Position numbers and translations under genes: made by a program | The notes under the pieces: generated by a model | What the model was told of the DNA's origin: nothing | Database searches by the model: none | The model's input: only the letters and a program-made list of their open reading frames with translations | Source: Spirochaetota bacterium | Lineage (GTDB): Bacteria > Spirochaetota > GWE2-31-10 > JAFGQB01 | Length of the DNA stretch: 35,349 nt | Reading direction: 5' to 3' | NCBI GenBank assembly: GCA_016935915.1 | Contig: JAFGQB010000032.1 | Coordinates: 1 to 35,349 of the forward strand | Shown: positions 8,986 to 31,260 of the stretch, piece after piece | Layout of the letters: each line of letters starts with the position of its first letter | Numbering within the stretch: the first letter of the stretch is position 1

Positions 8986-10077
8986 TTAAATATGACTGTA
9001 TTTAAAAAAGTTTGCACAATTGCCTTCAGCACTTACCATACATGCACCGACAGGATTATCGGGAGTACATACTTTTTTAAATAATTTACAGTCTAAAGGC
9101 TTTAAAATTCCTCTCATTATATCTCCGCAAATACAAAGAGGATTTTCTTCTGTATCATTTATTTTTATTTCAAATCTTTTTTCGGCATCAAATTCTGAAA
9201 ATTCTTTTTTTATTTTCAAACCGCTATTTTTAATTGAACCGATGCCTCTCCAAATACTGTCTGTTTCTTCAAATATTTCATTTATTATTTTTTGAGCTTT
9301 TATATTGCCCTCATAATTTGCCGCTCTTTTATACTGAATTTCGTTTTTTATGCAATTGTTTTTTAGCTGTTTTAATATCATTTTTATTGTTTGAATAAGG
9401 TCGACCGGTTCAAATCCGGAAGTTACGCAAGGTATTTGATAATCATTTGCTATTTTATCATATATTTTCGAGCCTGTTATAACAGTTACGTGACCTGGAC
9501 ATATAAATCCGTTTATCTTGATTTTATTGTCAGTTATCAATGATAGCATTGCATTCGGCATTGTTTTTAAACCGCATAGGGTGCTGAAATTGTTTATATT
9601 TTCATCATAGGCATGTTTGATCGCTGCTGAAACAGAAGGGGCTGTAGTTTCAAATCCTATACCTAAAAAAATAATCTCTTTGTCTTTATTTTCTTTTGCA
9701 ATTTTAACAGCATCCATAGTTGACAGACAAATCTTAACAATATTTCCGTTTTCTTTTTCCTTTTGAAGGCTTGATTCGGATCCCCGTACTTTTATCATAT
9801 CGCCGAAAGTTGTGATGATTGTATTTTTTATTCTTGATAATTTTACGGCTTTATCAATAAAATTATTTGGAGTTACGCATACAGGGCATCCGGGTCCGCT
9901 TATCAGATTTATGTTTTGTGGTATAAGTTTTTGAATACCGTATTTCAATATGGATAATGTATGTCCGCCGCAAACTTCCATGATATTAACTTTTTCTGTG
10001 ATTTTTATTTTTTTTATTTCCTTAATTATTAGATCAGCTGTTCTTTTATCTCTGTATTCATCAATAAATTTAAGCAT
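8986..10077 (-). CDS. hypD: Hydrogenase maturation protein HypD
   Basis: 363 residues, full length. HypD with HypC holds the Fe(CN)2(CO) unit while the [NiFe] active site is built. The conserved motifs are EVCGGHT (Cys36), GPGCPVCVTP (Cys64, Cys67), FGDMIKVRGS, GFETTAPSVSAA, FICPGHVTVITG and PCVTSGFEP. The C-terminal [4Fe-4S] cysteines are around Cys315, Cys317, Cys330, Cys337, Cys346 and Cys354 (LCICGDIMRG, DCKLFKKVCTP, PVGACMVSAEG). The gene start overlaps the hypC stop by 8 bases, so translation is coupled. It is the last gene of the minus-strand DUF554-hypF-hypC-hypD unit and converges with the secreted protein gene. Confidence 0.97.
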   Translation of the reverse strand: MLKFIDEYRDKRTADLIIKEIKKIKITEKVNIMEVCGGHTLSILKYGIQKLIPQNINLISGPGCPVCVTPNNFIDKAVKLSRIKNTIITTFGDMIKVRGSESSLQKEKENGNIVKICLSTMDAVKIAKENKDKEIIFLGIGFETTAPSVSAAIKHAYDENINNFSTLCGLKTMPNAMLSLITDNKIKINGFICPGHVTVITGSKIYDKIANDYQIPCVTSGFEPVDLIQTIKMILKQLKNNCIKNEIQYKRAANYEGNIKAQKIINEIFEETDSIWRGIGSIKNSGLKIKKEFSEFDAEKRFEIKINDTEENPLCICGDIMRGILKPLDCKLFKKVCTPDNPVGACMVSAEGNCANFFKYSHI

Positions 10078-10294
10078 TACTATTCTCTTTGATTTGATTT
10101 ATAAGATTTATTGATTCTATAGCCTCAGCTTCGTTAATTTTATTTATGGCAAAACCTGCATGCACAATCAGATACTCGCCAATTAAAGGATTATCTATTA
10201 ACTCAAGATTAACTTTATAATTAATGTTTCCCAGTTCTACGATTCCGTTTATTCCGTCAATCTTAATCAATTTCATTGGAACTGCAAGGCACAT
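10070..10294 (-). CDS. hypC: Hydrogenase maturation chaperone HypC
   Basis: 74 residues, the usual size. The N-terminus MCLAVPMKLIKID carries the essential Cys2 that binds the iron centre after Met removal. The rest is the OB-fold pattern (GIVELGNINYKVNLELI, GEYLIVHAGFAINKI). HypC shuttles the Fe(CN)2CO group with HypD and keeps the large subunit open for nickel insertion. GGAG lies 6 bases upstream of the start. It begins 12 bases after hypF and overlaps hypD by 8 bases. Only one HypC-type chaperone is present in the window, which fits a single hydrogenase here. Confidence 0.96.
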   Translation of the reverse strand: MCLAVPMKLIKIDGINGIVELGNINYKVNLELIDNPLIGEYLIVHAGFAINKINEAEAIESINLINQIKENSNA

Positions 10295-10306
10295 ATTTAA
10301 CTCCGA

Positions 10307-12634
10307 TTAAGAATTTTCACAGGCAATAACTGCCTGTCCTAGTGAAATACCTGCATCATTACACGGTGTATTTTTATGCGTAAAAACATTGAACTTTTCT
10401 TTTTTTAGGACATATGTAAGTTTGTTCAGCAAAAAAAAGTTCATGAAACAGCCGCCGCTTAATACTATATCATTAATCAGAGTTTTATCCCTGATTAATT
10501 TACATATATTTGATAATCCGGAGATTATAGCAAAATGAAATCTTTTTGAAATTTTCGAAACTGATATTTTATTTTTTAAATCCTTAATTATATTTTTAAT
10601 GACAGGCGACCAGTCTAGAGTATAATGATTTAAATTGTCGGTAACTTCAAAACAGTAATGATCTTTTATTTTTTTTTCATCGTTTATTGCATTTTCAAGC
10701 ATTATTGCAGGCTGTCCGTCATAAGTGGTTTCGAGGCATAAACCGCACAATGAACTGACTGCATCAAATAATCTTCCGCAACTTGATGTTAAGGGAGTGT
10801 TAATATTGTTTTTGATTTGATAGATGGTCATATCAAGCTGCTCTTTTTTTATGTCGCTAAAGACTTCCGGAATCATATCAATCCAGTCTGATTTAAAAAT
10901 TTCATAAATATATGATATAGCCATTTTCCATGGATTAATTATTGCCGACTCACCGCCAGGCATTAAAGCTTGTTTGAAATTGCCTATTCTTTTAAACTTT
11001 TTAAAATTTGCAATTAAGATTTCACCGCCCCATACAGTATCATCAGGACCGTAACCTGTTCCATCAAGTATTATTGCGATCACATCATGATTCAAATTAT
11101 TATCAACCATACAACTGGCTGCATGTGCATGATGGTGCTGTACTTCAAATATTTTTGCTTTTTTTAAATGATCAAATTCGTCGGGAATATTGATCGCAAA
11201 TTGAGTGTTCAGGTACTGTCTGTGCATATCACAGGCAATTATATCAGGATTTGATTTATATAAATAAGTTAAATGTCTGATGCTTTTTTTGAACAGCTTG
11301 AATGTTTCAAGCGATTTAAGATCGCCTATATGATTTGATAAAATGGCATTATTGTTTTTTATCAAGCAGATTATGTTGTTGTTTTCGGCACCCAAGGCAA
11401 GTATTTCTTTTTTATTATTATTATTAAGGGTAAGGACATTGGGTACGAATCCTCTGGACCTTCTAATAAAATAATCTTTATTTTTAATTAATTTAACTAC
11501 TGAATCATCACTGTTTATTATTATATCCCTGTCACCTGTCAGAAAAAAGTCGCATATTTTACTGAGTTTTTTAATTGATTCATTATCATTTATTATAATT
11601 GGTTCTTCGCTGATATTTGCACTTGTCATAATAAGCGGATAATTGAAATATTTGAACATAAGATAATGAACCGGAGTATAAGGAAGCATAATTCCCAAAT
11701 AATTATTATCAGGGGATACAAATTTGGATAATTTTTCTGGTCTTTTCTTTTTTAATAATATTATTGATCTGTCTTTTTCCTGCAATCGTTTTTTTTCTGC
11801 TAAAGTAATTTCAGTATGTTTTTCAACTTCCTTAATATCTTTCATCATAACGGCAAATGGTTTTGCTGGTCTGTTTTTTCTTTTTCTTAAGAGTTTTATA
11901 GCTTCGTCATTGAAAGCATCACAGGCTATGTGATAACCGCCTATGCCTTTTATTGCGATTATTTTTCCGCTATTAAGAAACTCTGCTATTTGCTTAAAGA
12001 TTTTAACTGTTGATGTTTCATCAATTCCTTTTATCAATAATTTGTTATTGTTATCAATCAATTTTAATACAGGTCCACATGAAAAACAGGCATTGTTTTG
12101 TGAATGAAATCTTCTGTCAGAAGGATCAAAATATTCCTTTTCGCAATCTTTACACATTTTAAATTTTTTTAAAACTGTTGTCTCTCTGTCATAGGGCATT
12201 TCTTTTGTAATTGTGAACCTCGGTCCGCATTTTGTACAGCCTGTGAAAGGATATTGATACCTTCTGTTTTTTTTATCAAATAATTCAGTTAAACAGCTTT
12301 CGCAGAGTGAAATGTCGGCAGCTATTGAAAGAAAACTGTTTTTTGATTTTAAGCTTTTCTTTATGATAAAGTTCTCAAACTTTTTATTTAAAGTCAATTC
12401 ATCTACTTCAAATGATTTATAAAATGCAAGATCAGGTTTTTTTTCTTTTAAAGCTTTTATAAACTTTTTGATATGATTTTCGTTTTGCTGTGCTAAAATA
12501 ATTACACTGTCGGAATCATTTAAAACATAGCCTTTTATTTTGAATTTTTTGGAAAGATCAAAGACAAATGGTCTGAAACCTATTCCCTGAACAATTCCTT
12601 TTATTCTTATCTGAAAAGTTTTTAATTCATGCAT
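10307..12634 (-). CDS. hypF: Carbamoyltransferase HypF (cyanide ligand synthesis)
   Basis: 775 residues, complete. The acylphosphatase domain occupies about 1-95 (KGIVQGIGFRPFV with Arg21, and Asn39). Two zinc fingers follow: Cys111-Cys114 with Cys133-Cys136, and Cys161-Cys164 with Cys183-Cys186. A YrdC-like domain spans about 205-390 (KGIGGYHIACDA, AKPFAVMMKD, PLIMTSANISEEP). The Kae1-like carbamoyltransferase domain runs from about 410 to the end, with the metal motif HHHAHAASCM (500-509) and LDGTGYG. It converts carbamoyl phosphate and ATP to the carbamoyl group passed to HypE, the source of the CN ligands. HypE is not in the window. The carB product supplies carbamoyl phosphate. The gene follows DUF554 with a 16-base gap. 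Confidence 0.97.
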   Translation of the reverse strand: MHELKTFQIRIKGIVQGIGFRPFVFDLSKKFKIKGYVLNDSDSVIILAQQNENHIKKFIKALKEKKPDLAFYKSFEVDELTLNKKFENFIIKKSLKSKNSFLSIAADISLCESCLTELFDKKNRRYQYPFTGCTKCGPRFTITKEMPYDRETTVLKKFKMCKDCEKEYFDPSDRRFHSQNNACFSCGPVLKLIDNNNKLLIKGIDETSTVKIFKQIAEFLNSGKIIAIKGIGGYHIACDAFNDEAIKLLRKRKNRPAKPFAVMMKDIKEVEKHTEITLAEKKRLQEKDRSIILLKKKRPEKLSKFVSPDNNYLGIMLPYTPVHYLMFKYFNYPLIMTSANISEEPIIINDNESIKKLSKICDFFLTGDRDIIINSDDSVVKLIKNKDYFIRRSRGFVPNVLTLNNNNKKEILALGAENNNIICLIKNNNAILSNHIGDLKSLETFKLFKKSIRHLTYLYKSNPDIIACDMHRQYLNTQFAINIPDEFDHLKKAKIFEVQHHHAHAASCMVDNNLNHDVIAIILDGTGYGPDDTVWGGEILIANFKKFKRIGNFKQALMPGGESAIINPWKMAISYIYEIFKSDWIDMIPEVFSDIKKEQLDMTIYQIKNNINTPLTSSCGRLFDAVSSLCGLCLETTYDGQPAIMLENAINDEKKIKDHYCFEVTDNLNHYTLDWSPVIKNIIKDLKNKISVSKISKRFHFAIISGLSNICKLIRDKTLINDIVLSGGCFMNFFLLNKLTYVLKKEKFNVFTHKNTPCNDAGISLGQAVIACENS

Positions 12635-12650
12635 ATTCTTAAGTCACAAA

Positions 12651-13349
12651 TCATTTGAAAAAATATACAAAAAGCAATTTAGAAATAAAGTATATCAATG
12701 GTATAAATATCGAAGGTATCATATTGCCTACTTTGATCTTTTTAATTTCAAGTATATTTATACCAATGCCAATTATTATTATACCGCCGATTGATGTCAT
12801 CTGGTTTATAACTATGTCAGTTAGATATGGTTTTAATAATGAAGCTGTAATTGTAATTGTTCCCTGATAGATCAATACTATAACTGATGAAAAGATAACT
12901 CCGATACCCAGAGATGATGCGAAAATTATCGATGCTATGCCGTCAAGTAATGATTTAACATATAATGTTTTATGGTCTTGAGTCAAGCCGCTTTCCAGTG
13001 ATCCTACAATTGCCATTGATCCCACACAAAATATAAGACTTGATGTAACAAAAGATTTTATAAAGTTTGAGTTGTCTTTTGAAAATTTATTTTCAAGCCA
13101 TTGACCTAACTTTTCAAGGTTTTCTTCTATTCTTAATAATTCCCCAATATATGATCCCAATACTATACTAATGATTATCAGAAGAAGAGAATCCGATTTT
13201 AAACCGTTAATAATACCTACCATTATAACACTTAATCCCAATCCCTGAACTATTGTAATACGAAATCTTTCTGGGATAATCTTGTTAAACAATAATCCTA
13301 TGACTGAACCTATGATAATTGCGGAAAAGTTTACAATGGTGCCCAGCAT
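12651..13349 (-). CDS. DUF554 family membrane protein
   Basis: 232 residues with 6-7 predicted membrane helices. The N-terminus MLGTIVNFSAIIIGSVIGLL and the motifs GIINGLKSDS, VGSMAIVGSLESGL and LLDGIASIIFASSLGIGV are characteristic of the DUF554 (YqgA/YdfK-like) family, putative transporters of unproven substrate. GAAGGG lies 11 bases before the ATG. It is the first gene of the minus-strand unit that continues into hypF, hypC and hypD, reading from the promoter at 13393-13421. Its placement with the hyp genes makes a role with nickel or another hydrogenase-related solute conceivable, but it may simply be a passenger. Confidence 0.88.
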   Translation of the reverse strand: MLGTIVNFSAIIIGSVIGLLFNKIIPERFRITIVQGLGLSVIMVGIINGLKSDSLLLIIISIVLGSYIGELLRIEENLEKLGQWLENKFSKDNSNFIKSFVTSSLIFCVGSMAIVGSLESGLTQDHKTLYVKSLLDGIASIIFASSLGIGVIFSSVIVLIYQGTITITASLLKPYLTDIVINQMTSIGGIIIIGIGINILEIKKIKVGNMIPSIFIPLIYFISKLLFVYFFK

Positions 13350-13565: not shown

Positions 13566-14609
13566 ATGCAAATATATAAAATTTTAAAAAAATCAAATCT
13601 GGACAGTCTAGTTTCAATATTATCTAAAAAACAAAAATTTATGGCTCCAGTAAGCAAAGGATTAAATAAATTTGCTTTTGAGTCGGTAACATCTTCAAAG
13701 GATATAGCTTTAAAATACATTCCGACTATTTTAGCTCCAAAGAAATATTTCATGCCTCAATATGAAACTCTTATCGAATATGATACCAAAGAAGGACAGA
13801 ACATGAAAGCTGTCGTTGAATATGAAAATATGGTCTTATTTGCTGTTCATACCTGCGATTTGGCAGGGATACAGTGTCTAAATATAGTTTTTTCCGATAG
13901 ACCCAAAGATTTGAATTATTTAGTTAGAAAAAATAAAATAACAATTATCGGGCTTGAGTGCAATGAAGTATGTGATGAATATTCCACTTGCGCTTTTATG
14001 GATAATGATCTTCCTAATGGAGGATATGACCTTTTTTTTACTGATCTTGGGGAATATTTTATTGTTCATGTAAATACTCAGATGGGTGATGCAATAATAA
14101 ATGACACTAAACTTTTTGAAGATGCTACAGTCAGCCATATAAATGAGTTGGAAAAATTAAGAGAAAAAAAGAGAAAATTATTTATAAATCAATTTGGAAT
14201 TGACAGACAAAAAATTCCGGAGCTTTTTGATAAAAGTAAAGAAAGTCAAATCTGGGATGATATTGGGAACAGATGTCTCTCCTGCGGTAATTGCACGAAT
14301 GTCTGTCCAACATGTTATTGTTTTGATGTAATGGATGTTCAAAATCTTGATCTAAAGACAGGTAAAAGAATACGGGTTTGGGATTCATGCCAAAATGAAA
14401 CCTTTGCGAAAGTATCAGGAGGTGAAAGTTTCAGGGAAGCAAGAAGCGACAGGAAAAGACACAGATTTTATAGAAAATTTAAATATCCTGTAAACAGATA
14501 TTCAAGATTTTTCTGCACAGGCTGCGGTAGATGCACAAGAACATGCATGGCAAAAATCAGCCTTTTGGAAACTCTTGAGTTATTAATTAAGGAGAATAAG
14601 GTAAAATGA
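13566..14609 (+). CDS. hydB: Group 3b [NiFe]-hydrogenase (sulfhydrogenase) beta subunit, iron-sulfur protein
   Basis: 347 residues, related to HydB of Pyrococcus sulfhydrogenase and to AsrA of anaerobic sulfite reductase. Two classical [4Fe-4S] motifs are visible: Cys237-x2-Cys240-x2-Cys243-x3-Cys247 and Cys317-x2-Cys320-x2-Cys323-x3-Cys327. The N-terminal half holds the family pattern HTCDLAGIQCL (92-104) and a Cys group (Cys132, Cys136, Cys142). The subunit carries electrons between the flavoprotein HydG and the small subunit HydD, and in archaeal enzymes takes part in sulfur reduction. It acts in the cytoplasm. It is the first gene of the operon and overlaps hydG by 4 bases (ATGA). Confidence 0.93.
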   Translation: MQIYKILKKSNLDSLVSILSKKQKFMAPVSKGLNKFAFESVTSSKDIALKYIPTILAPKKYFMPQYETLIEYDTKEGQNMKAVVEYENMVLFAVHTCDLAGIQCLNIVFSDRPKDLNYLVRKNKITIIGLECNEVCDEYSTCAFMDNDLPNGGYDLFFTDLGEYFIVHVNTQMGDAIINDTKLFEDATVSHINELEKLREKKRKLFINQFGIDRQKIPELFDKSKESQIWDDIGNRCLSCGNCTNVCPTCYCFDVMDVQNLDLKTGKRIRVWDSCQNETFAKVSGGESFREARSDRKRHRFYRKFKYPVNRYSRFFCTGCGRCTRTCMAKISLLETLELLIKENKVK

Positions 14610-17520: not shown

Positions 17521-17965
17521 AACAGCAATACTTGGTGTCGGCAATCCTCTTCGAACGGATGACGGAGTTGGTCCTGAAATAATTAGAATTTTGCTTGAAG
17601 AAAAAGATATTATTAATGCAGATATAATCGATTGCGGCATTAATGTTTTTTTATTGTTTAATTATTTAGAAAAATATAAAAATATTATAATAGTTGATGC
17701 ATTAAATTTTGATTCGGATCCCGGAACAATTAAATTGATTGATATTAATGAATCAGAAAGTTTTGATTTTATTGATGCATTATCAACTCATGGATTTGGA
17801 TTAAAAGAAGTTTTGAATATGGCAAAAAAAATGAATATATCAAATAAGATTACTGTTGTGGGTATTCAGGCAAAAAATATATCTTACGGTAATGAAATGT
17901 CAGAGGAAATAAAAGAAAAAATACCTCAAATAGTTGATGAAATAAAAAAACAGATGAATAGTTAA
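17507..17965 (+). CDS. Hydrogenase maturation endopeptidase
   Basis: 152 residues of the HycI/HybD family. The N-terminus GVGNPLRTDDGVGPEI is the family signature. Likely nickel-sensing ligands are Asp18 or Asp19, Asp64 (IIVDA) and His95 (STHGFGL). It cuts the 11-residue tail of HydA once nickel is in place. The start overlaps the hydA end by 14 bases and has no clear Shine-Dalgarno of its own, so translation is likely coupled. The stop codon overlaps the stop of the convergent lyase gene. The exact name (hycI, hydD-type protease) cannot be chosen from sequence alone. Confidence 0.93.
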   Translation: MEKNKTAILGVGNPLRTDDGVGPEIIRILLEEKDIINADIIDCGINVFLLFNYLEKYKNIIIVDALNFDSDPGTIKLIDINESESFDFIDALSTHGFGLKEVLNMAKKMNISNKITVVGIQAKNISYGNEMSEEIKEKIPQIVDEIKKQMNS

Positions 17966-17982
17966 AAAATGTCTGTTTTTTT
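17944..17982. terminator. Bidirectional terminator spanning two overlapping stop codons
   Basis: AAAAAAACAGA (17944-17954) and TCTGTTTTTTT (17972-17982) are perfect 11-bp inverted repeats with a 17-base loop. The loop contains the stop of the protease gene (17963-17965) and, on the other strand, the stop of the lyase gene (17962-17964). The A and T tracts give a U-tail for both directions. Confidence 0.72.
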
Positions 17983-19533
17983 AAGGAAATCTCTAACTTT
18001 AATAATCTCTTCATCCATAGGTCTGTCTTTGTCAAGAAATTTTGTAAACTTCCTTATTTCCAGATGAACATTTTTTGAGAAATTGCTGAAATCATTTAAT
18101 CCGATCAAGTCCATTGCCTGTAAAACAGCTAATAAATGTATAGAAAACTGCAGATAAGCTAAATCTATTGAGTCCCTTAATTTTCTTGCTGATATAGTAC
18201 CAAGAGAAACTTTATCTTGATTTAATGATTCTGTAGGTCTTGAATGAATGCTTATAGGATTAGATAAATATTGAATTTCACTGCAGATTGCAGATATGGA
18301 AATTTGCGCAGCTTTAAATCCATGTTGTATTCCTTTTAACGGTGAGTCATCTTTAAATTCTGGGATCAAATTTTCTGTCAGATTATTAAATTTACCATCT
18401 ATAATCAAAGCTGATTGTTTGTCAGATAGATCAATGATATTTGCCAATGCTACTCTTAAATAGTCGCATGCGCAGGAAATGTGCCCACCATAAAAGTTTC
18501 CGCTGTTGTAAACTGTTTTGTCATCAGGATCTATCAATGGGTTGTCATTTGCTGAATTAATTTCATTTTCTATCCATGTTTTTGAAAATTTTAATGTGTC
18601 TCTCAATACTCCGTTTATCTGAGGAGCGCATCTTACCGAATATCTGTCTTGAATTCTTCTGTCATTTTTTTTAAAATTATTTCCTTGGATAGTACCTATA
18701 ATATTTAATAAGTTTTCATATTTATAAACTCTTTTTGAATTTTTTAAAATATTAAAGATATATTGAGCGCTTTCAATCTGTCCGATATGATTTTTAATCA
18801 ATGAAACTTTTTCTCTGAACGGTATTTCATTACCGTTGATAATTTCTACTGTTACGGCTGTTATAAAATCAGAAATGTTAGAAAGTTTTTTAAGATCCAT
18901 CCATGCTATGCTGGCAATTGCAGTCATAACTGATGTGCCATTCATCAGAGCAAGTCCTTCTTTTGATTTTAATTTTAATGGTGTTAGTTTTTCTTTTTCC
19001 AAAGCTGTTTTTGTATCAGTTATTTTATTTTTATAAATTACCTTTCTTTGACCCATTAATACCGCTGCTATGTAGCTTAATGGCGTTAAGTCACCTGAAG
19101 CACCTACTGATCCGATTTCGGGGATACATGGTACTATGTCATGATTTAATAAATTTTTCATTAATTCAAGCAATTCAAATCTGACACTTGAATAACCTTT
19201 TGCATTTGAGTTTAATCTTACAGCGGTTATTGCCCGACTTTCAGATTCTGAAAAAAAACCGCCAACTCCTACTCCGTGAAAATTAACTAATGATTCTTGC
19301 AGCAGTTCAGTTTTTGTTGTGCTGATCTGATTATTGCATGAATCTCCAAAACCTGTAGTAACACCATAGATTGGATATCCCTGTTTTATATAATTTTCTA
19401 GATAATTTCTTGATTCTATGATTTTATTTTTAAAATCAAATCCTTCAGGAAAATCTATTTTTGTTTTATTAATTGCAATATCATAAACATTTTCAATTGT
19501 TAAGTTATTTCCGTCTATTATAATATTTTTAAT
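17962..19533 (-). CDS. MIO-type aromatic amino acid ammonia-lyase or aminomutase (histidine ammonia-lyase superfamily)
   Basis: 523 residues if started at ATT 19533-19531. AAGGAG lies 7 bases before that codon and an in-frame stop lies 27 bases upstream of it. The first residues KNIIIDGNNLTIENV match the usual N-terminus of the family, so no upstream start is needed. The MIO cofactor triad Ala-Ser-Gly is at 145-147 (GSVGASGDLTPLS). The catalytic Tyr is Tyr56 (IYGVTTGFG). The substrate-selecting pair is Phe85-His86 (VNFHGVGVG), where HAL has Ser-His and TAL His-Leu. The C-terminal motif reads NQDKVSLG, like TAL and aminomutases (NQDVVSMG), not HAL (NQEDHVSM). No hutU or hutI is nearby. Likely substrate is tyrosine or phenylalanine, and an aminomutase is possible. 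Confidence 0.85.
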   Translation of the reverse strand: MKNIIIDGNNLTIENVYDIAINKTKIDFPEGFDFKNKIIESRNYLENYIKQGYPIYGVTTGFGDSCNNQISTTKTELLQESLVNFHGVGVGGFFSESESRAITAVRLNSNAKGYSSVRFELLELMKNLLNHDIVPCIPEIGSVGASGDLTPLSYIAAVLMGQRKVIYKNKITDTKTALEKEKLTPLKLKSKEGLALMNGTSVMTAIASIAWMDLKKLSNISDFITAVTVEIINGNEIPFREKVSLIKNHIGQIESAQYIFNILKNSKRVYKYENLLNIIGTIQGNNFKKNDRRIQDRYSVRCAPQINGVLRDTLKFSKTWIENEINSANDNPLIDPDDKTVYNSGNFYGGHISCACDYLRVALANIIDLSDKQSALIIDGKFNNLTENLIPEFKDDSPLKGIQHGFKAAQISISAICSEIQYLSNPISIHSRPTESLNQDKVSLGTISARKLRDSIDLAYLQFSIHLLAVLQAMDLIGLNDFSNFSKNVHLEIRKFTKFLDKDRPMDEEIIKVRDFLKKTDIF

Positions 19534-24476: not shown

Positions 24477-24494
24477 TGACAGATGGAGCATTTA

Positions 24495-26786
24495 ATGAAG
24501 CCTTATGATTCTAAAAGTATATTAATTATCGGAGCTGGACTTTTACAAGTGCCGGTCATTAAAACTGCTAATGAATTGGGTTTAAAAACAATTGTTACTG
24601 ATTACAATATAGATGCGCCTGGTATGAAAATAGCTGACCATCCTGTAGTGATATCAATTAAAGATATTGACGGTACGGTCAGAGTTATAAAACAACTTAA
24701 TAAAAAAATCAAGATTGATGGTGTTATTACATCAGGTACTGATGCATCTATGACTGTTGCAGCTGTGGCAAATGCATTAAACCTTCCCGGTATACCTTTT
24801 GAAAATGCAGAAGCTGCAAGCAATAAATTTAAGATGAGAAAACGACTCTTAGAACATAATGTACCTATTCCGAAATTTTTTAAATGCTGGAGCTTTGATG
24901 ATCTTTTAAATATTTCTAAAGAACTTAATTATCCTTTTGTAATTAAACCGGTTGACAATATGGGTGCAAGAGGAGTAATGAAAATAGACAATGAAGCACT
25001 GCTTCATGTCGCATTTGATAACGCAAAAAAAGGAAGCCCTTCAGGCGAGTTAATAGTGGAAGAATATATGGAGGGAAGTGAATTATCAATCGACTCAATA
25101 GTTTATCATGATCAAATAAAAATAACAGGAATAGCGGACAGGATTATTGCACGGGAACCATATTTTATTGAATTAGGACATATATTGCCATCCAATCAAC
25201 CTGAAAATGTTTTAGAAAATGCCGTTGATGTTTTTAAACAGGCGATAAAGGCTATAGGTATTACACTTGGAGCGGCTAAAGGCGACATTAAGCTTACTAA
25301 AGAAGGTGCGAAAATAGTTGAAATAGCAGCAAGACTGTCAGGCGGATTTATGTCTGCATATACATATCCTTATGCTACAGGTGTTAATCTTATCAGAATA
25401 GCAATTGATCTATCATTAGGCATCGAACCATTACCTCAACTTTTTATACCTACAAAAAACAGGATTTCTATAGAAAAGGCAATTATACCAAAACCTGGTG
25501 TAATTAAGGAAATAAATGGAGTTAATGAAGCATTATCAATACATGGTATTATGAATGTATTTACAAGAGTTAACATAGGTGATGAGATTTTTGATCCTAA
25601 AAGCAATGTTGAAAAAGCGGGAAATATCATTGCAGTCAAGGATACAAGAGAAGAAGCTTTAAAAACCATAGAAGAAGCTGAAAAATTCATTAATATACTT
25701 ACTGAACCGTTTAAAGTATTAAGCTGGGATACTATTTGTCATAAAGCAAGAGAAAGATTTAACAGGGCATGCTATGTATGCAATGTTTGCAACGGTGTTG
25801 AATGCAGAGGAAAAATGCCAGGCATTGGCGGGATCGGTAATGGAAATGCTTTTATCAGAAATTATAAAGATCTAAATAAAATATTGATTAAAACAAGAAT
25901 CATACATAATATAAAAGATATAGACACTTCATGTGATTTTTTTCATGTCAAATTATCATTGCCGTTGATCGCTGCGCCTATCTCTGGATGTGATATCAAT
26001 CTGGGCGGTAATATTACTGAATTGGAATATGATTTAGCTATAGTAGAAGGTTGTAAAGATAACGGAATAATTGGATTTGTAGGGGACAGAGCAAATGATA
26101 ATCTTTATAAAATAGGGCTTGAAGCTATCAAAAATGTCAATGGCTATGGCGGGATTATATTTAAACCACATGAAGATCAGAATGAATTAAAAAAAAGATT
26201 AAATGAAGCTAAAAATAATAATGTAAAATTTGTCGGTATAGACATTGATGCTAGTGCATTTTTAAAAATGAAATCATATAATCAAAATGTCAGTCCAAAA
26301 ACTTTTGAACAGCTTTTAGATCTAAGAGAATCAACCGGCACACCTTTTATAATTAAAGGAATAATGACAATTGATGATGCATTATTATCGATAAAATCGG
26401 GAGCTGATGCAATAGTAGTAAGCAATCATGGTGGAAGAATTACCGACAATCATCCCTCTTCAATTTCAGTTTTAAGAGAAATTTCAGAAGCTGTAAAAGG
26501 TAAAATTAAGATTATTTTTGATGGTGGAATAAGAAGCGGAGAAGATATATTTAAGGCAATTGCATTGGGGGCTGATTATGTAATGATAGGCAGACCTTTT
26601 GCTATAGCAGTTATGGGCGGAGAAAAAATTGGTATAAATATTTTGATTAATCGTTATAAAGAAGAGCTTGAAAAAATAATGTTAATAACCGGCTGCAGGA
26701 CAATCTACGACATTAAAGAAGATTTAATTATTACACCTGATTTCAGACAGAGTATTTACATTCAGAACGGAAGGTGTTATAATTAA
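24495..26786 (+). CDS. Fusion of an ATP-grasp ligase and an FMN-dependent alpha-hydroxy-acid dehydrogenase-type domain
   Basis: 763 residues from ATG 24495 (GGAG lies 5 bases before it; an ATG at 24483 would overlap that site). Residues 1-405 form a PurT/CarB-type ATP-grasp enzyme: Rossmann start ILIIGAGLLQVPVIK, ATP lid FVIKPVDNMGARGV (148-161), metal/phosphate site KIVEIAARLSGGF (273-285). Residues 420-450 hold Cys426-x2-Cys429-x2-Cys432-x4-Cys437 just before MPGIGGIGNGNAFIRN. From about 440 the FMN barrel follows, with FIIKGIMT (Lys621), SNHGGR (His645, Arg648) and FDGGIRSGEDIFKA with IGRPF (676-702). The FMN half resembles the LldD superfamily, but its four cysteines are unusual there. 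Chemically it could ligate and oxidise or reduce one substrate; which one is unknown. Confidence 0.85.
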   Translation: MKPYDSKSILIIGAGLLQVPVIKTANELGLKTIVTDYNIDAPGMKIADHPVVISIKDIDGTVRVIKQLNKKIKIDGVITSGTDASMTVAAVANALNLPGIPFENAEAASNKFKMRKRLLEHNVPIPKFFKCWSFDDLLNISKELNYPFVIKPVDNMGARGVMKIDNEALLHVAFDNAKKGSPSGELIVEEYMEGSELSIDSIVYHDQIKITGIADRIIAREPYFIELGHILPSNQPENVLENAVDVFKQAIKAIGITLGAAKGDIKLTKEGAKIVEIAARLSGGFMSAYTYPYATGVNLIRIAIDLSLGIEPLPQLFIPTKNRISIEKAIIPKPGVIKEINGVNEALSIHGIMNVFTRVNIGDEIFDPKSNVEKAGNIIAVKDTREEALKTIEEAEKFINILTEPFKVLSWDTICHKARERFNRACYVCNVCNGVECRGKMPGIGGIGNGNAFIRNYKDLNKILIKTRIIHNIKDIDTSCDFFHVKLSLPLIAAPISGCDINLGGNITELEYDLAIVEGCKDNGIIGFVGDRANDNLYKIGLEAIKNVNGYGGIIFKPHEDQNELKKRLNEAKNNNVKFVGIDIDASAFLKMKSYNQNVSPKTFEQLLDLRESTGTPFIIKGIMTIDDALLSIKSGADAIVVSNHGGRITDNHPSSISVLREISEAVKGKIKIIFDGGIRSGEDIFKAIALGADYVMIGRPFAIAVMGGEKIGINILINRYKEELEKIMLITGCRTIYDIKEDLIITPDFRQSIYIQNGRCYN
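26755..26783 (+). promoter_or_regulatory. Promoter of the hexokinase gene (extended -10), leaderless type
   Basis: TTTACA (26755-26760), a 17-base spacer and TATAAT (26778-26783) preceded by TGT (extended -10). It lies within the last codons of the fusion gene. The ATG begins 8 bases after the -10 box, so the transcript would start at or beside the A of the ATG. Confidence 0.6.
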
Positions 26787-26791
26787 AAATA

Positions 26792-28078
26792 ATGAATAAT
26801 AATTTTAAAAAAGTTGAAAGATTTTTAAAAAAATATAATCTTCATCATTCTTTAATTAATATAGATCATTATTCAAATTTATTCATCAAAGAAATGAAAA
26901 AAGGACTTCTGCAAAAAAGAAGTTCCTTAAAAATGCTTCCTACATTTATTAATACCAAGGAAAAAATACAGTCTGGTCAAAAGATAATCGTTATAGATGC
27001 CGGAGGTACAAATTTACGAATAGCTTTAGTTGAATTTAATAAAAGTTTTATTCCTGATGTTACATATTTAAAAAATTTTAAAATGCCTGGTTATAAAAAA
27101 GAGATATCTTCACATGATTTTTTTAAGATGCTTAAATATTATTTAAAACCGATAGAAAACTTAAGCGGCAAAATTGGTTTTTGCTTTTCATATCCTACAG
27201 AGTCAAATTCGGATAAGGATGGTAAAGTAATATCATTCAGCAAGGAAATAAGTATAAATGGATTAAAAGGCAATTATTTGGGTAATACTTTAAATTCATA
27301 TTTCAAGCATAAGAAAAAAATTATTGTTTTAAATGATACTGTTGCAGCTTTACTGTCAGGACTTATATATAAAGAAAAAAAATATGATTCTTATATTGGT
27401 TTTATTCTTGGAACCGGCACCAATTGCGGTTATATTGGTGATTATTATAATGTTAAAAATAGAATTAATTATACACAACAGGTTATAAATATTGAATCTG
27501 GTAATTTTAATAAAATAAAAAGAGGTATGATCGATATTGAATTAGATAATAATACTGATAATCCTAACAGTTATACTTTAGAAAAAATGATATCAGGACA
27601 ATACCTTGGATCATTAATTAATTCAGCATTGAAGTATGCTGTACACCAAAACCTTTTTGATAAAAACAGCGGCTATAAATTATTAAAAATTGATAATATT
27701 TCAACAAAGGAATTGTCTGATTTTTTAGATAATCCTTTTTCAAGTGAAAATATTTTATCTGCTTCGCTTGATAAAAAAGATGATGACAACAGAGTTACTT
27801 TGTTTTTATTAATTGATAATTTTATTGAAAGAGCGGCAAAAATATCAGCATTTATCTTATCAGCTGTTTCAATATATCTGAACAAAGGAAAAAATCCGAT
27901 CAAACCTATTTGTTTTGTATGTGAAGGTACAACTTTTAATAAATTGAATAATTTAAAATTCAAAACCAATTTTTATTTAAAAAATTATCTTGAGCATAAT
28001 AAAAAAATTTTTTTTGATATTATCAATATCAACAATGCTACATTGATAGGTTCTGCTGTAGCTGCTTTGATAAATTAA
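26792..28078 (+). CDS. Hexokinase (sugar kinase, hexokinase family)
   Basis: 428 residues. The phosphate-1 motif VIDAGGTNLRIALV (Asp69, Gly71-Gly72-Thr73-Asn74) is followed by the sugar-binding stretch FCFSYPTES (130-138), the catalytic loop LNDTVAALLSG (Asn181, Asp182) and phosphate-2 LGTGTNCGY (206-214). These fit the eukaryote-type hexokinase family found in spirochaetes, larger than ROK or Glk kinases. The enzyme phosphorylates glucose or a related hexose with ATP in the cytoplasm. The N-terminal 60 residues are helical. The gene starts 5 bases after the fusion gene stop with no Shine-Dalgarno and has a strong extended -10 promoter right in front, so it is probably leaderless. Confidence 0.92.
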   Translation: MNNNFKKVERFLKKYNLHHSLINIDHYSNLFIKEMKKGLLQKRSSLKMLPTFINTKEKIQSGQKIIVIDAGGTNLRIALVEFNKSFIPDVTYLKNFKMPGYKKEISSHDFFKMLKYYLKPIENLSGKIGFCFSYPTESNSDKDGKVISFSKEISINGLKGNYLGNTLNSYFKHKKKIIVLNDTVAALLSGLIYKEKKYDSYIGFILGTGTNCGYIGDYYNVKNRINYTQQVINIESGNFNKIKRGMIDIELDNNTDNPNSYTLEKMISGQYLGSLINSALKYAVHQNLFDKNSGYKLLKIDNISTKELSDFLDNPFSSENILSASLDKKDDDNRVTLFLLIDNFIERAAKISAFILSAVSIYLNKGKNPIKPICFVCEGTTFNKLNNLKFKTNFYLKNYLEHNKKIFFDIININNATLIGSAVAALIN

Positions 28079-29589: not shown

Positions 29590-31260
29590 GTGAAATCAAA
29601 ATTCTTTATATTACTTTTTGCAACTATAATTTTTTATTTATCAGCCCTTGAAGTTGATATTGACGAAATTAAAAATGTAAATAAAATACAATTTGAAAAT
29701 TATAAGGGGCATATTGACAAATATGATTCTGAACGCAGTATCAGAAATATTGGCTATCAATTGGGACTTTTTGAAAAAGAAAATGAATTGTTCAGGTATC
29801 ATATGAAATATTCAATAATACATGCGATTGATGAAAAAACAAAAGAAAAATATGATGCAGATATTTTCTCAATAGATAGTGATGCGCAAGTCGGTCATAT
29901 AAGAAATATAAGATTTATAATAAGCGGTTATCTTTCAAAACAATATGGTTATACAAAAAGACAATCAGATGCTTTAGCATTATTTTTAACTTATTATAAT
30001 GCATATTACAGAGGTAATCTAGAATATTTTAATGATAAGTATAAAGAAATTGTTATAAACTATATTAATAAAAGCAATGCAGGTATTTCTACCAAGTATT
30101 ATGAATGGCCCGGCAGTACAAAAATTCTTATTCCATTAACTAAAAGTTCTCAAAAAGATAAATTAAAATCACTGGAAACCTTTGAAATCAGCAATTCAAA
30201 AATTATTGATGAGATGAGGAAAAGTGATGATAAAAAAATAGATGAAAGAAAAGAGATGGTAAAATTAAAGGAAAAAGAACTTGTTGAGGAAAAAAAGTCA
30301 ATAGAAAAAGAAAAAAAAGATGTTCAGACTGAGAGAAAAGAAATTGAAAAGCAGAAAGATACGATCGAAAAAGAAAAAGAAGAAATTGCTAAAAAAGAGG
30401 ATGAGATCAAAAAAGAAAAAGAGGAAGTAAAAAATATAAAAGATGATAAATCAAGAAAAAATAAAGAGGAAGAAATTAAAAAAGAAGAAAAGAAGCTTGA
30501 AGAAAAAAAAGCTGAAGTAATAAAAAAAGAAGAAGCAGTTAAAAAAGAGGAGACAAAAGTATCAAAAAAAGAAGAACAGGTAAAGCAGAAAGAGCAGACA
30601 GCTTTAACTAAGACACAGACAGTACAGAAAGAAAAAGAACAGATTAAAAGAGACATTACTCAGCCTAAATCAAGGGAAGAAGCATTAGCGCAAAAAGAAA
30701 AAGAGTTGAAGGAAAGAGAAGATGAGCTTAAAAGACAGCAGAGAGATGATAAGGTTTATGCAGATAAATTTTATTATTTAAAAACCAAAGAATATATGGT
30801 CGGAGGACATTATAATAATGAGATGTATATAATCGATGCAGCAGGTATGAAAGTGAGTTTGAAATCTCCAGTTGAAAAGATCTGCGGATATAAATATCTA
30901 GTATATAAAGAAGGAGTAGTTGTAATTACATATAAAACAACTCATGAATCTGATCACAATTTAACATTACTTGATCTTGAAAAATTGGATGTTAAAAAAG
31001 CCGGTATAGACAATATTTTTTTTAGAAGCTTTATCGAAGAATATGAAAATCATATTTTTGCAATAGTTAAAAACGGTGATGATTATTATCTTGGAAAATT
31101 TAATAAAAGCCTTGAAAGAGTAGCAATATCCGATGAAAAGATTGATTTTGCCACATTTATAACATTTTATAAAGATTATATATATGTGAACAATGTTAAA
31201 AATGAGATTATTGTTTTAAATAAAAATGATTTGAAAAATATAGGCATTGTCAAGCCGTAA
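29590..31260 (+). CDS. P83/100 family antigen (spirochaete)
   Basis: 556 residues. The start is GTG with AAGGAG 6 bases upstream; the ATG two bases before it is followed at once by a stop. Residues 1-20 are a signal peptide. Residues 21-185 match the N-terminal domain of Borrelia burgdorferi P83/100: QFENYKGHIDKYDS, DADIFSIDSDAQVGHIRNIR, FIISGYLSKQYGYTKRQSDA, YYNAYYRGNLEYF and NAGISTKYYEWPGSTKILIPL. Residues about 205-390 are a charged coiled coil of repeated KKEKEEIKKEE units. Residues 395-556 are the conserved C-terminal beta-rich domain. In Borrelia it is a large vesicle-associated antigen of unknown biochemical function. This is the strongest evidence that the window is from a spirochaete. 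Confidence 0.93.
   Translation: MKSKFFILLFATIIFYLSALEVDIDEIKNVNKIQFENYKGHIDKYDSERSIRNIGYQLGLFEKENELFRYHMKYSIIHAIDEKTKEKYDADIFSIDSDAQVGHIRNIRFIISGYLSKQYGYTKRQSDALALFLTYYNAYYRGNLEYFNDKYKEIVINYINKSNAGISTKYYEWPGSTKILIPLTKSSQKDKLKSLETFEISNSKIIDEMRKSDDKKIDERKEMVKLKEKELVEEKKSIEKEKKDVQTERKEIEKQKDTIEKEKEEIAKKEDEIKKEKEEVKNIKDDKSRKNKEEEIKKEEKKLEEKKAEVIKKEEAVKKEETKVSKKEEQVKQKEQTALTKTQTVQKEKEQIKRDITQPKSREEALAQKEKELKEREDELKRQQRDDKVYADKFYYLKTKEYMVGGHYNNEMYIIDAAGMKVSLKSPVEKICGYKYLVYKEGVVVITYKTTHESDHNLTLLDLEKLDVKKAGIDNIFFRSFIEEYENHIFAIVKNGDDYYLGKFNKSLERVAISDEKIDFATFITFYKDYIYVNNVKNEIIVLNKNDLKNIGIVKP

Follow-up and report, generated by a model that had tools for sequence, protein, structure and literature searches.

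In Shewanella oneidensis the sfmABCDE genes encode NeuB, a TPP enzyme, a reductase, a methyltransferase and an ATP-grasp protein, the flagellar glycan consists of mono-acetyl Pse with an O-methylated moiety, and deletion of sfmE lowers the flagellin mass and reduces both spreading and swimming (PMC3765264). The type B flagellin modification of Clostridioides difficile has an ATP-grasp carboxylate-amine ligase, CDR20291_0245, encoded in the flagellin glycan locus (PMC5207246), and the flagellin of Treponema denticola carries a 450.2-Da glycan that is essential for filament assembly (PMC9481697). Most spirochaetes probably require a glycan for their flagellar filaments, and the synthesis of this glycan is largely unassigned. 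Here we analysed a stretch of 35,349 nucleotides from a Spirochaetota bacterium (contig JAFGQB010000032.1; the window), which encodes an ATP-grasp ligase fused to an FMN barrel. The most likely role of this fusion, previously unassigned, is in the spirochaete flagellar glycan pathway.

The ligase half of the fusion resembles SfmE (SO_3265), a ~410-aa ATP-grasp protein encoded beside NeuB and a SAM methyltransferase (PMC3765264), although SfmE has neither an FMN barrel nor the four cysteines described below, and the carbon-building enzyme of the sfm operon differs. We draw this likeness from the published description; our sequence comparison was with an sfm-like cluster of Solidesulfovibrio (L091), in which the ATP-grasp is 32% identical. 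Compared by description alone, CDR20291_0245 belongs to a different glycan and has no FMN barrel described (PMC5207246). The L-amino acid ligase BL00235 (3vot) has the same set of ATP-grasp and LAL_C2 domains at 23-24% identity (Foldseek with the N-terminal half, E 8.8e-33, TM 0.87 by target), but is an unfused dipeptide ligase whose substrate presumably differs. The FMN_dh oxidases of glycolate, lactate and mandelate (1gox, 6a3t) share the TIM barrel and the KG, SNHGGR, DGGIR and GRP motifs of the C-terminal half (Foldseek TM 0.82 by target for mandelate oxidase, 6a3t); in the fusion a four-cysteine element replaces their N-terminal part, and sequence matches in the PDB end short of it. A standalone 'alpha-hydroxy-acid oxidizing protein' of Clostridia (Vescimonas WP_212821939) is 38% identical over the barrel and has the same four cysteines, but is unfused and has no glycan genes nearby in one annotated region. 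A search of the PDB and the accessible literature found no characterised enzyme of ATP-grasp/FMN-barrel architecture, which supports the description of the fusion as a candidate new enzyme in the initial annotation.

The window carries a single stop-free frame at 24483-26786 on the forward strand, a mechanical open reading frame of 767 aa. A Shine-Dalgarno-like GGAG at 24485-24488 (+), read directly from the sequence 6 nt upstream of ATG 24495, together with the nearest homologues, which start at the equivalent methionine, places the start at this ATG, as first proposed, and gives a coding sequence of 763 aa at 24495-26786 (+). Residues are numbered here from 24483. The N-terminal half, residues 10-405 (24510-25697, +), is an ATP-grasp ligase of the LAL type according to Pfam, Foldseek (3vot) and its invariant residues. 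It contains an ATPgrasp_N domain (residues 28-103; 24564-24791, +), an ATP-grasp core (ATP-grasp_3, residues 112-287; 24816-25343, +; E 1.3e-16, 61.5 bits against a Pfam cut-off of 23.2) and a LAL_C2 domain (residues 335-406; 25485-25700, +; E 8.9e-16, 58.4 bits against 29.4). The C-terminal half, residues 430-752 (25770-26738, +), is an FMN-dependent TIM barrel of the alpha-hydroxy-acid dehydrogenase type (FMN_dh, PF01070, E 8.1e-64, with the best Pfam stretch at residues 606-749; Foldseek 6a3t). AlphaFold2 on 55 fusions gave a mean pLDDT of 90.6 and a pTM of 0.62, with values below 50 only at residues 1-4 and 756-767 and of ~69-84 over the cysteine stretch; a single-sequence prediction of the barrel reached a pLDDT of 46.8 and was unusable. 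Pyruvate carboxylases headed the Foldseek results for the whole protein, but with an rmsd of ~25 over both domains these are composite alignments and do not indicate homology of the architecture. The Pfam, Foldseek and AlphaFold2 results agree with the first reading of a complete ligase and a barrel in one frame, and the open reading frame at 24495-26786 is a genuine, widely conserved two-part enzyme rather than a one-genome curiosity.

In the ATP-grasp half the ATP- and Mg-binding residues Lys155, Glu193, Asp268, Glu280 and Arg284 are invariant in the 55 fusions. All catalytic positions are present, and formation of an acyl phosphate and of an amide would therefore be expected. The barrel has the motifs that define FMN_dh enzymes (KG, SNHGGR, DGGxR and GRP). 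Lys625 of the KG motif (26355-26357, +) is invariant in 24 barrels and in the 55 fusions. Barrel alignments identify the SNHGGR motif at residues 647-652 (26421-26438, +), with the catalytic-type His649, and the FMN phosphate-binding motif DGGIR follows at residues 680-684 (26520-26534, +) with D, G, G and R invariant. In the GRP motif, residues 703-705 (26589-26597, +), the R and P are invariant in the 55 fusions and the G nearly so. The SNHGGR and phosphate-binding motifs noted at the outset are real; the histidine is replaced by arginine in one clade (L026, L031 and L033), which retains the four cysteines, and this change argues against simple hydroxy-acid oxidation there.

At the join of the domains lies CYVCNVCNGVEC, which reads C-x2-C-x2-C-x4-C followed by PGxGG (C430-x2-C433-x2-C436-x4-C441; 25770-25805, +). 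All four cysteines are invariant in the 55 fusions (46-64% identity to the window protein). The same holds for 24 FMN domains with 26-60% identity to that of the window, a set made up of fusions and of standalone proteins from Brachyspira-like, Treponema-like and clostridial genomes. Such invariance shows that the pattern is not due to chance, and cysteines are lost only from barrels that are also without the active-site motifs. Since standalone FMN homologues have the same four residues, the cysteines form the N-terminal element of the flavin domain and were not created by the fusion. The conserved pattern thus stood up, but the hinge that it had been taken for did not. The spacing of the invariant cysteines fits metal-binding proteins, as in Fe-S proteins, and the predicted metal site, probably for an Fe-S cluster, may instead bind zinc.

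The full-length fusion was found in most of the first 60 relatives searched, and a match at E 1e-25 occurs in 311 of the 393 spirochaete genomes; the fusion is present in most spirochaete lineages. Outside the phylum, a scan of 84,980 genomes, one per species, showed the fusion among the best 80 of 350 relatives in Nitrospinota, Candidatus Coatesbacteria, Lindowbacteria and unnamed bacteria (46-51% identity). Viral contigs yielded no relative, and plasmids no fusion and only single-domain matches. That the fusion is kept across phyla indicates that the two halves belong together. This part of the original proposal held; an obligatory order of ligation and then redox was not supported, since in many flagellated spirochaetes the ligase occurs without an FMN barrel, and in Brachyspira-like genomes the barrel fused to it has degenerated.

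In Brachyspira-like genomes (f11; this and the labels Borrelia-like, f36, Sphaerochaeta-like, f49, and treponemes, f19, are inferred group names) the fusions at L046:6767-8935, L048:7225-9369 and L052:6430-8595 have an intact ATP-grasp and a barrel without the four cysteines, SNHGG and DGG, and this fused barrel is predicted to be a pseudo-enzyme. Two of these genomes encode a separate 337-aa barrel elsewhere (L047, L049) with all motifs and cysteines present. We also observed the mirror case in genome G024 (f18), where one copy combines an intact FMN barrel with a decayed ATP-grasp that has lost its ATP/Mg-binding residues and another is a lone intact ATP-grasp (L042:6399-8558 and L050:7408-8673). 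Many flagellated spirochaete families have the ATP-grasp with a tail of ~150 aa and without an FMN barrel, so that the flavin step has to be optional or replaced rather than universal. By these comparisons the flavin half is dispensable.

To place the enzyme in a pathway we compared 22 loci, namely 20 spirochaete regions around spiro-SPASM genes, picked regardless of ATP-grasp, together with L035 and L039. Spiro-SPASM (TIGR04321) is a radical SAM protein and not a homologue of the fusion, but it shares operons and phylogenetic distribution with the ATP-grasp gene and can be regarded as a partner family; a literature search found no paper on it. The series runs SPASM, a ~340-aa gene, CTP_transf_3, PseG/methyltransferase, ATP-grasp, Amidase_3, GerMN and FlaA. 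The ATP-grasp gene directly follows the PseG-like/methyltransferase gene in 16 of the 22 loci; further along, the amidase is present in 15, GerMN in 14 and FlaA in 12. The ~340-aa gene that separates spiro-SPASM from the cytidylyltransferase (L108:9368-10345 and equivalents) is conserved in 18 and matches no Pfam or NCBIfam family. The window itself shows no linkage to NulO or flagellar genes; its genome has the partner genes on contig C245, where SPASM, CTP_transf_3/PseG/methyltransferase, Amidase_3, GerMN and FlaA occur in order without the ATP-grasp and the ~340-aa gene. The window fusion is the only close ATP-grasp of this genome, whose assembly is 78% complete.

The two halves can also be traced separately. 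In a treponeme of 1.14 Mb (G058) the FMN gene stands by itself after a radical SAM/SPASM gene, identified as spiro-SPASM (TIGR04321), a ~370-aa gene, CTP_transf_3 with methyltransferase, and a HAD gene. The first three of these families also precede the ATP-grasp gene of G013, and both halves thus occupy the same place in the same gene series. In fusion lineages, that of the window included, the gene usually lies away from glycan genes. Among the fusion loci compared, a PseG/methyltransferase or CMP-transferase gene was found nearby only in Brevinema (L073/L155), where the fusion adjoins a PseG/methyltransferase homologue, in G017 (L074/L157), where the two are three genes apart, and at L175 and L220. 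The order at L175 is CTP_transf_3, PseG (TIGR03590, above cut-off), HpcH_HpaI, fusion and Maf. An HpcH/HpaI-type aldolase-like gene directly adjoins the fusion in 21 Nitrospinota loci, at L175 and at L199. Among spirochaetes the L175-type aldolase is present in 10 of 42 genomes and in none of 7 aflagellate or Borrelia-type genomes, a pattern that is only suggestive of a link to the pathway. The Nitrospinota protein has 263 aa (L195:11236-12021 and equivalents), and in many of these loci it is followed by genes of ~422 and ~904 aa, which presumably resemble ATP-citrate lyase subunits.

Some recurrent neighbours were set aside. LeuA/CimA-type genes near the fusion (L072, L080) fit the branched-chain IPMS_Lepto/CimA families and were taken as chance neighbours, and KDPG aldolase (PF01081), considered as the maker of the acid, occurs in aflagellate genomes too and is non-diagnostic. 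Directly downstream of the ATP-grasp gene there is a ~340-aa membrane protein with a GGDEF-like end and/or a ~455-aa TPR membrane protein at L086, L088, L046, L048, L052, L043 and L044; these recur in several lineages and were uninformative as a clue to its role.

The distribution of the ATP-grasp follows that of the flagellar glycan genes. Of the 393 spirochaete genomes, 298 have both an ATP-grasp match and spiro-SPASM, 13 the former only, 5 the latter only and 77 neither (Fisher p 3e-61, a value that treats genomes as unrelated when their counts share ancestry). Among the discordant genomes, G359 and G316, counted as ATP-grasp only, owe their match solely to the FMN domain, aflagellate G386 has only a capsule-type pair, and most of the remainder are incomplete assemblies; G320 and G114 are exceptions without explanation. 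Flagellin (PF00669), searched in 80 of the 393 genomes, was found in 32 of 32 sampled carriers of both ATP-grasp and SPASM. It was not found in 25 f49, 3 f44 and 2 f50 genomes, none of which has ATP-grasp or SPASM other than G359 and G386, explained above. Flagellated relatives, G297 (f44) and G244 (f50), retain flagellin, ATP-grasp and SPASM, which indicates joint loss in at least three lineages. All 28 carriers tested have NeuB (best E 1e-48 or better), against a strong match in 2 of 17 non-carriers; for Maf the figures are 28 of 28 and 1 of 17. The 14 Borrelia-like genomes have flagellin and are without both ATP-grasp and spiro-SPASM, so that Borrelia-type genomes are now shown to be without this gene set. 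The independent events behind the co-occurrence are the three losses and the separate gene clusters.

It is very likely that the fusion acts in the spirochaete flagellin NulO (pseudaminic-type) glycan pathway, given the linkage of its orthologs in 16 of the 22 loci and in the L175 cluster and its co-occurrence with NeuB, Maf and flagellin. Where the initial annotation could name no pathway, we therefore put flagellin NulO glycosylation, for which context and co-occurrence argue and in which SfmE is known by deletion in Shewanella. An alternative is that the fusion attaches an amino acid or another acid to an amino sugar in the synthesis of surface polysaccharide, capsule or LPS, with an indirect link to flagella. 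ATP-grasp relatives are found in both NulO and capsule clusters, the nearest non-fused plasmid ATP-grasps belong to capsule clusters that also encode sugar transferases and DegT aminotransferases, and 6-8 kb downstream of the fusion the window encodes a DegT aminotransferase and a Bac_transf protein. However, the capsule types differ in their motifs (TDK, HTEI and RLGGG in place of ADR, AKGD and RLSGG), and across three aflagellate lineages the gene comes and goes together with flagellin, Maf and NeuB, with only the capsule-type pair in aflagellate G386. The gene series that contains the ATP-grasp ortholog ends with FlaA, and we consider a capsule function improbable. In a tree of ATP-grasps the tail-type clade is recovered at 100/100 with the capsule group apart; the root is not resolved, and the fused types separate from the capsule types without firm support.

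A housekeeping enzyme, for instance of lactate or amino acids, lost with flagella through genome reduction, would account for the very wide conservation, for retention in the 1.14-Mb treponeme and for neighbours that differ in most fusion lineages. Yet aflagellate lineages with genomes of up to 3.6 Mb are without the gene while a 1.1-Mb treponeme keeps it, and this reading leaves the synteny of the gene with those of PseG, CMP-transferase, FlaA and Maf without explanation, which makes it improbable. It is also conceivable, if rather unlikely, that the ATP-grasp is the flagellar-glycan ligase and the FMN barrel acts elsewhere or is a regulatory or redox-sensing module. Many flagellates have no barrel or a degenerate one, in one clade arginine takes the place of its histidine, and in one clostridium a barrel with the four cysteines stands alone, with no adjoining ATP-grasp. 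Against this, the fusion has been retained over several phyla, the separate FMN gene of the 1.14-Mb treponeme lies within the glycan gene series, and the second fused copy in f18 has an intact barrel while its ATP-grasp decays. As a whole, the best explanation is that the fusion is probably an acyl ligase/oxidoreductase of flagellar NulO modification. We think it reasonably probable that the ATP-grasp half is an amide ligase acting on NulO, and only tentatively assign the flavin half to the acyl acid.

Placement in the pathway follows from domain content, conservation, co-occurrence and gene neighbourhood, and beyond it we infer the substrates, the amide product, the direction of the flavin reaction and the Fe-S cluster. 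Where its gene is adjacent, the HpcH/HpaI-type aldolase would be the likely source of a small sugar acid. Interconversion between the 2-hydroxy and 2-oxo forms of this acid, or of something closely derived from it, may fall to the FMN barrel and its four-cysteine element, and O-methylation of the acid to the methyltransferase fused to PseG. The ATP-grasp half would use ATP to activate the carboxylate, and the activated acid would be joined to a free amino group of NulO, or of a UDP- or CMP-linked precursor, as an N-acyl amide, a reaction like that proposed for SfmE in Shewanella, before Maf transfers the finished sugar onto flagellin. Such a set would parallel sfmABCDE in its methyltransferase and ATP-grasp, with the aldolase and FMN enzyme possibly replacing the TPP enzyme and reductase. 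The glycan of T. denticola, of 450 Da, reportedly (Kurniyati and colleagues, 2017) carries a 2-methoxy-4,5,6-trihydroxyhexanoyl group; we hypothesise that this C6 acid could arise through a pyruvate aldolase, redox at C2, O-methylation and an amide ligase. More speculatively, and at present doubtfully, the fusion may be a bifunctional 'acyl-NulO synthase', in which an aldolase product is turned by the flavin half into a 2-hydroxy (later 2-methoxy) 3-deoxy sugar acid, which the ATP-grasp half loads onto the flagellar NulO. If true, this would account for the T. denticola group and tie genes of the syphilis spirochaete without an assigned role to motility. We can now name a candidate ligase, its partner flavoenzyme and a conserved series of genes found in most flagellated spirochaete lineages sampled, and the spiro-SPASM family gains a likely role in the flagellar glycan pathway.

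Other genes of the window were also noted. A hexokinase (26792-28078, +) begins 5 nt after the fusion; neither it nor the HAD gene was kept as a functional neighbour, the placement in the window not being conserved among relatives. A homologue of Borrelia P83/100 (PF05262, E 1.6e-74) lies at 29590-31260 (+). HypD, HypF and DUF554 genes at 8989-13349 (-) and 13566-14606 (+) lie beside a Fer4_22 protein, and this region is probably part of a hydrogenase locus. An aromatic amino acid lyase (PF00221) at 17965-19173 (-), with a TTG start, matches positions 110-465 of the profile only, and its N-terminus may be missing or its start misread.
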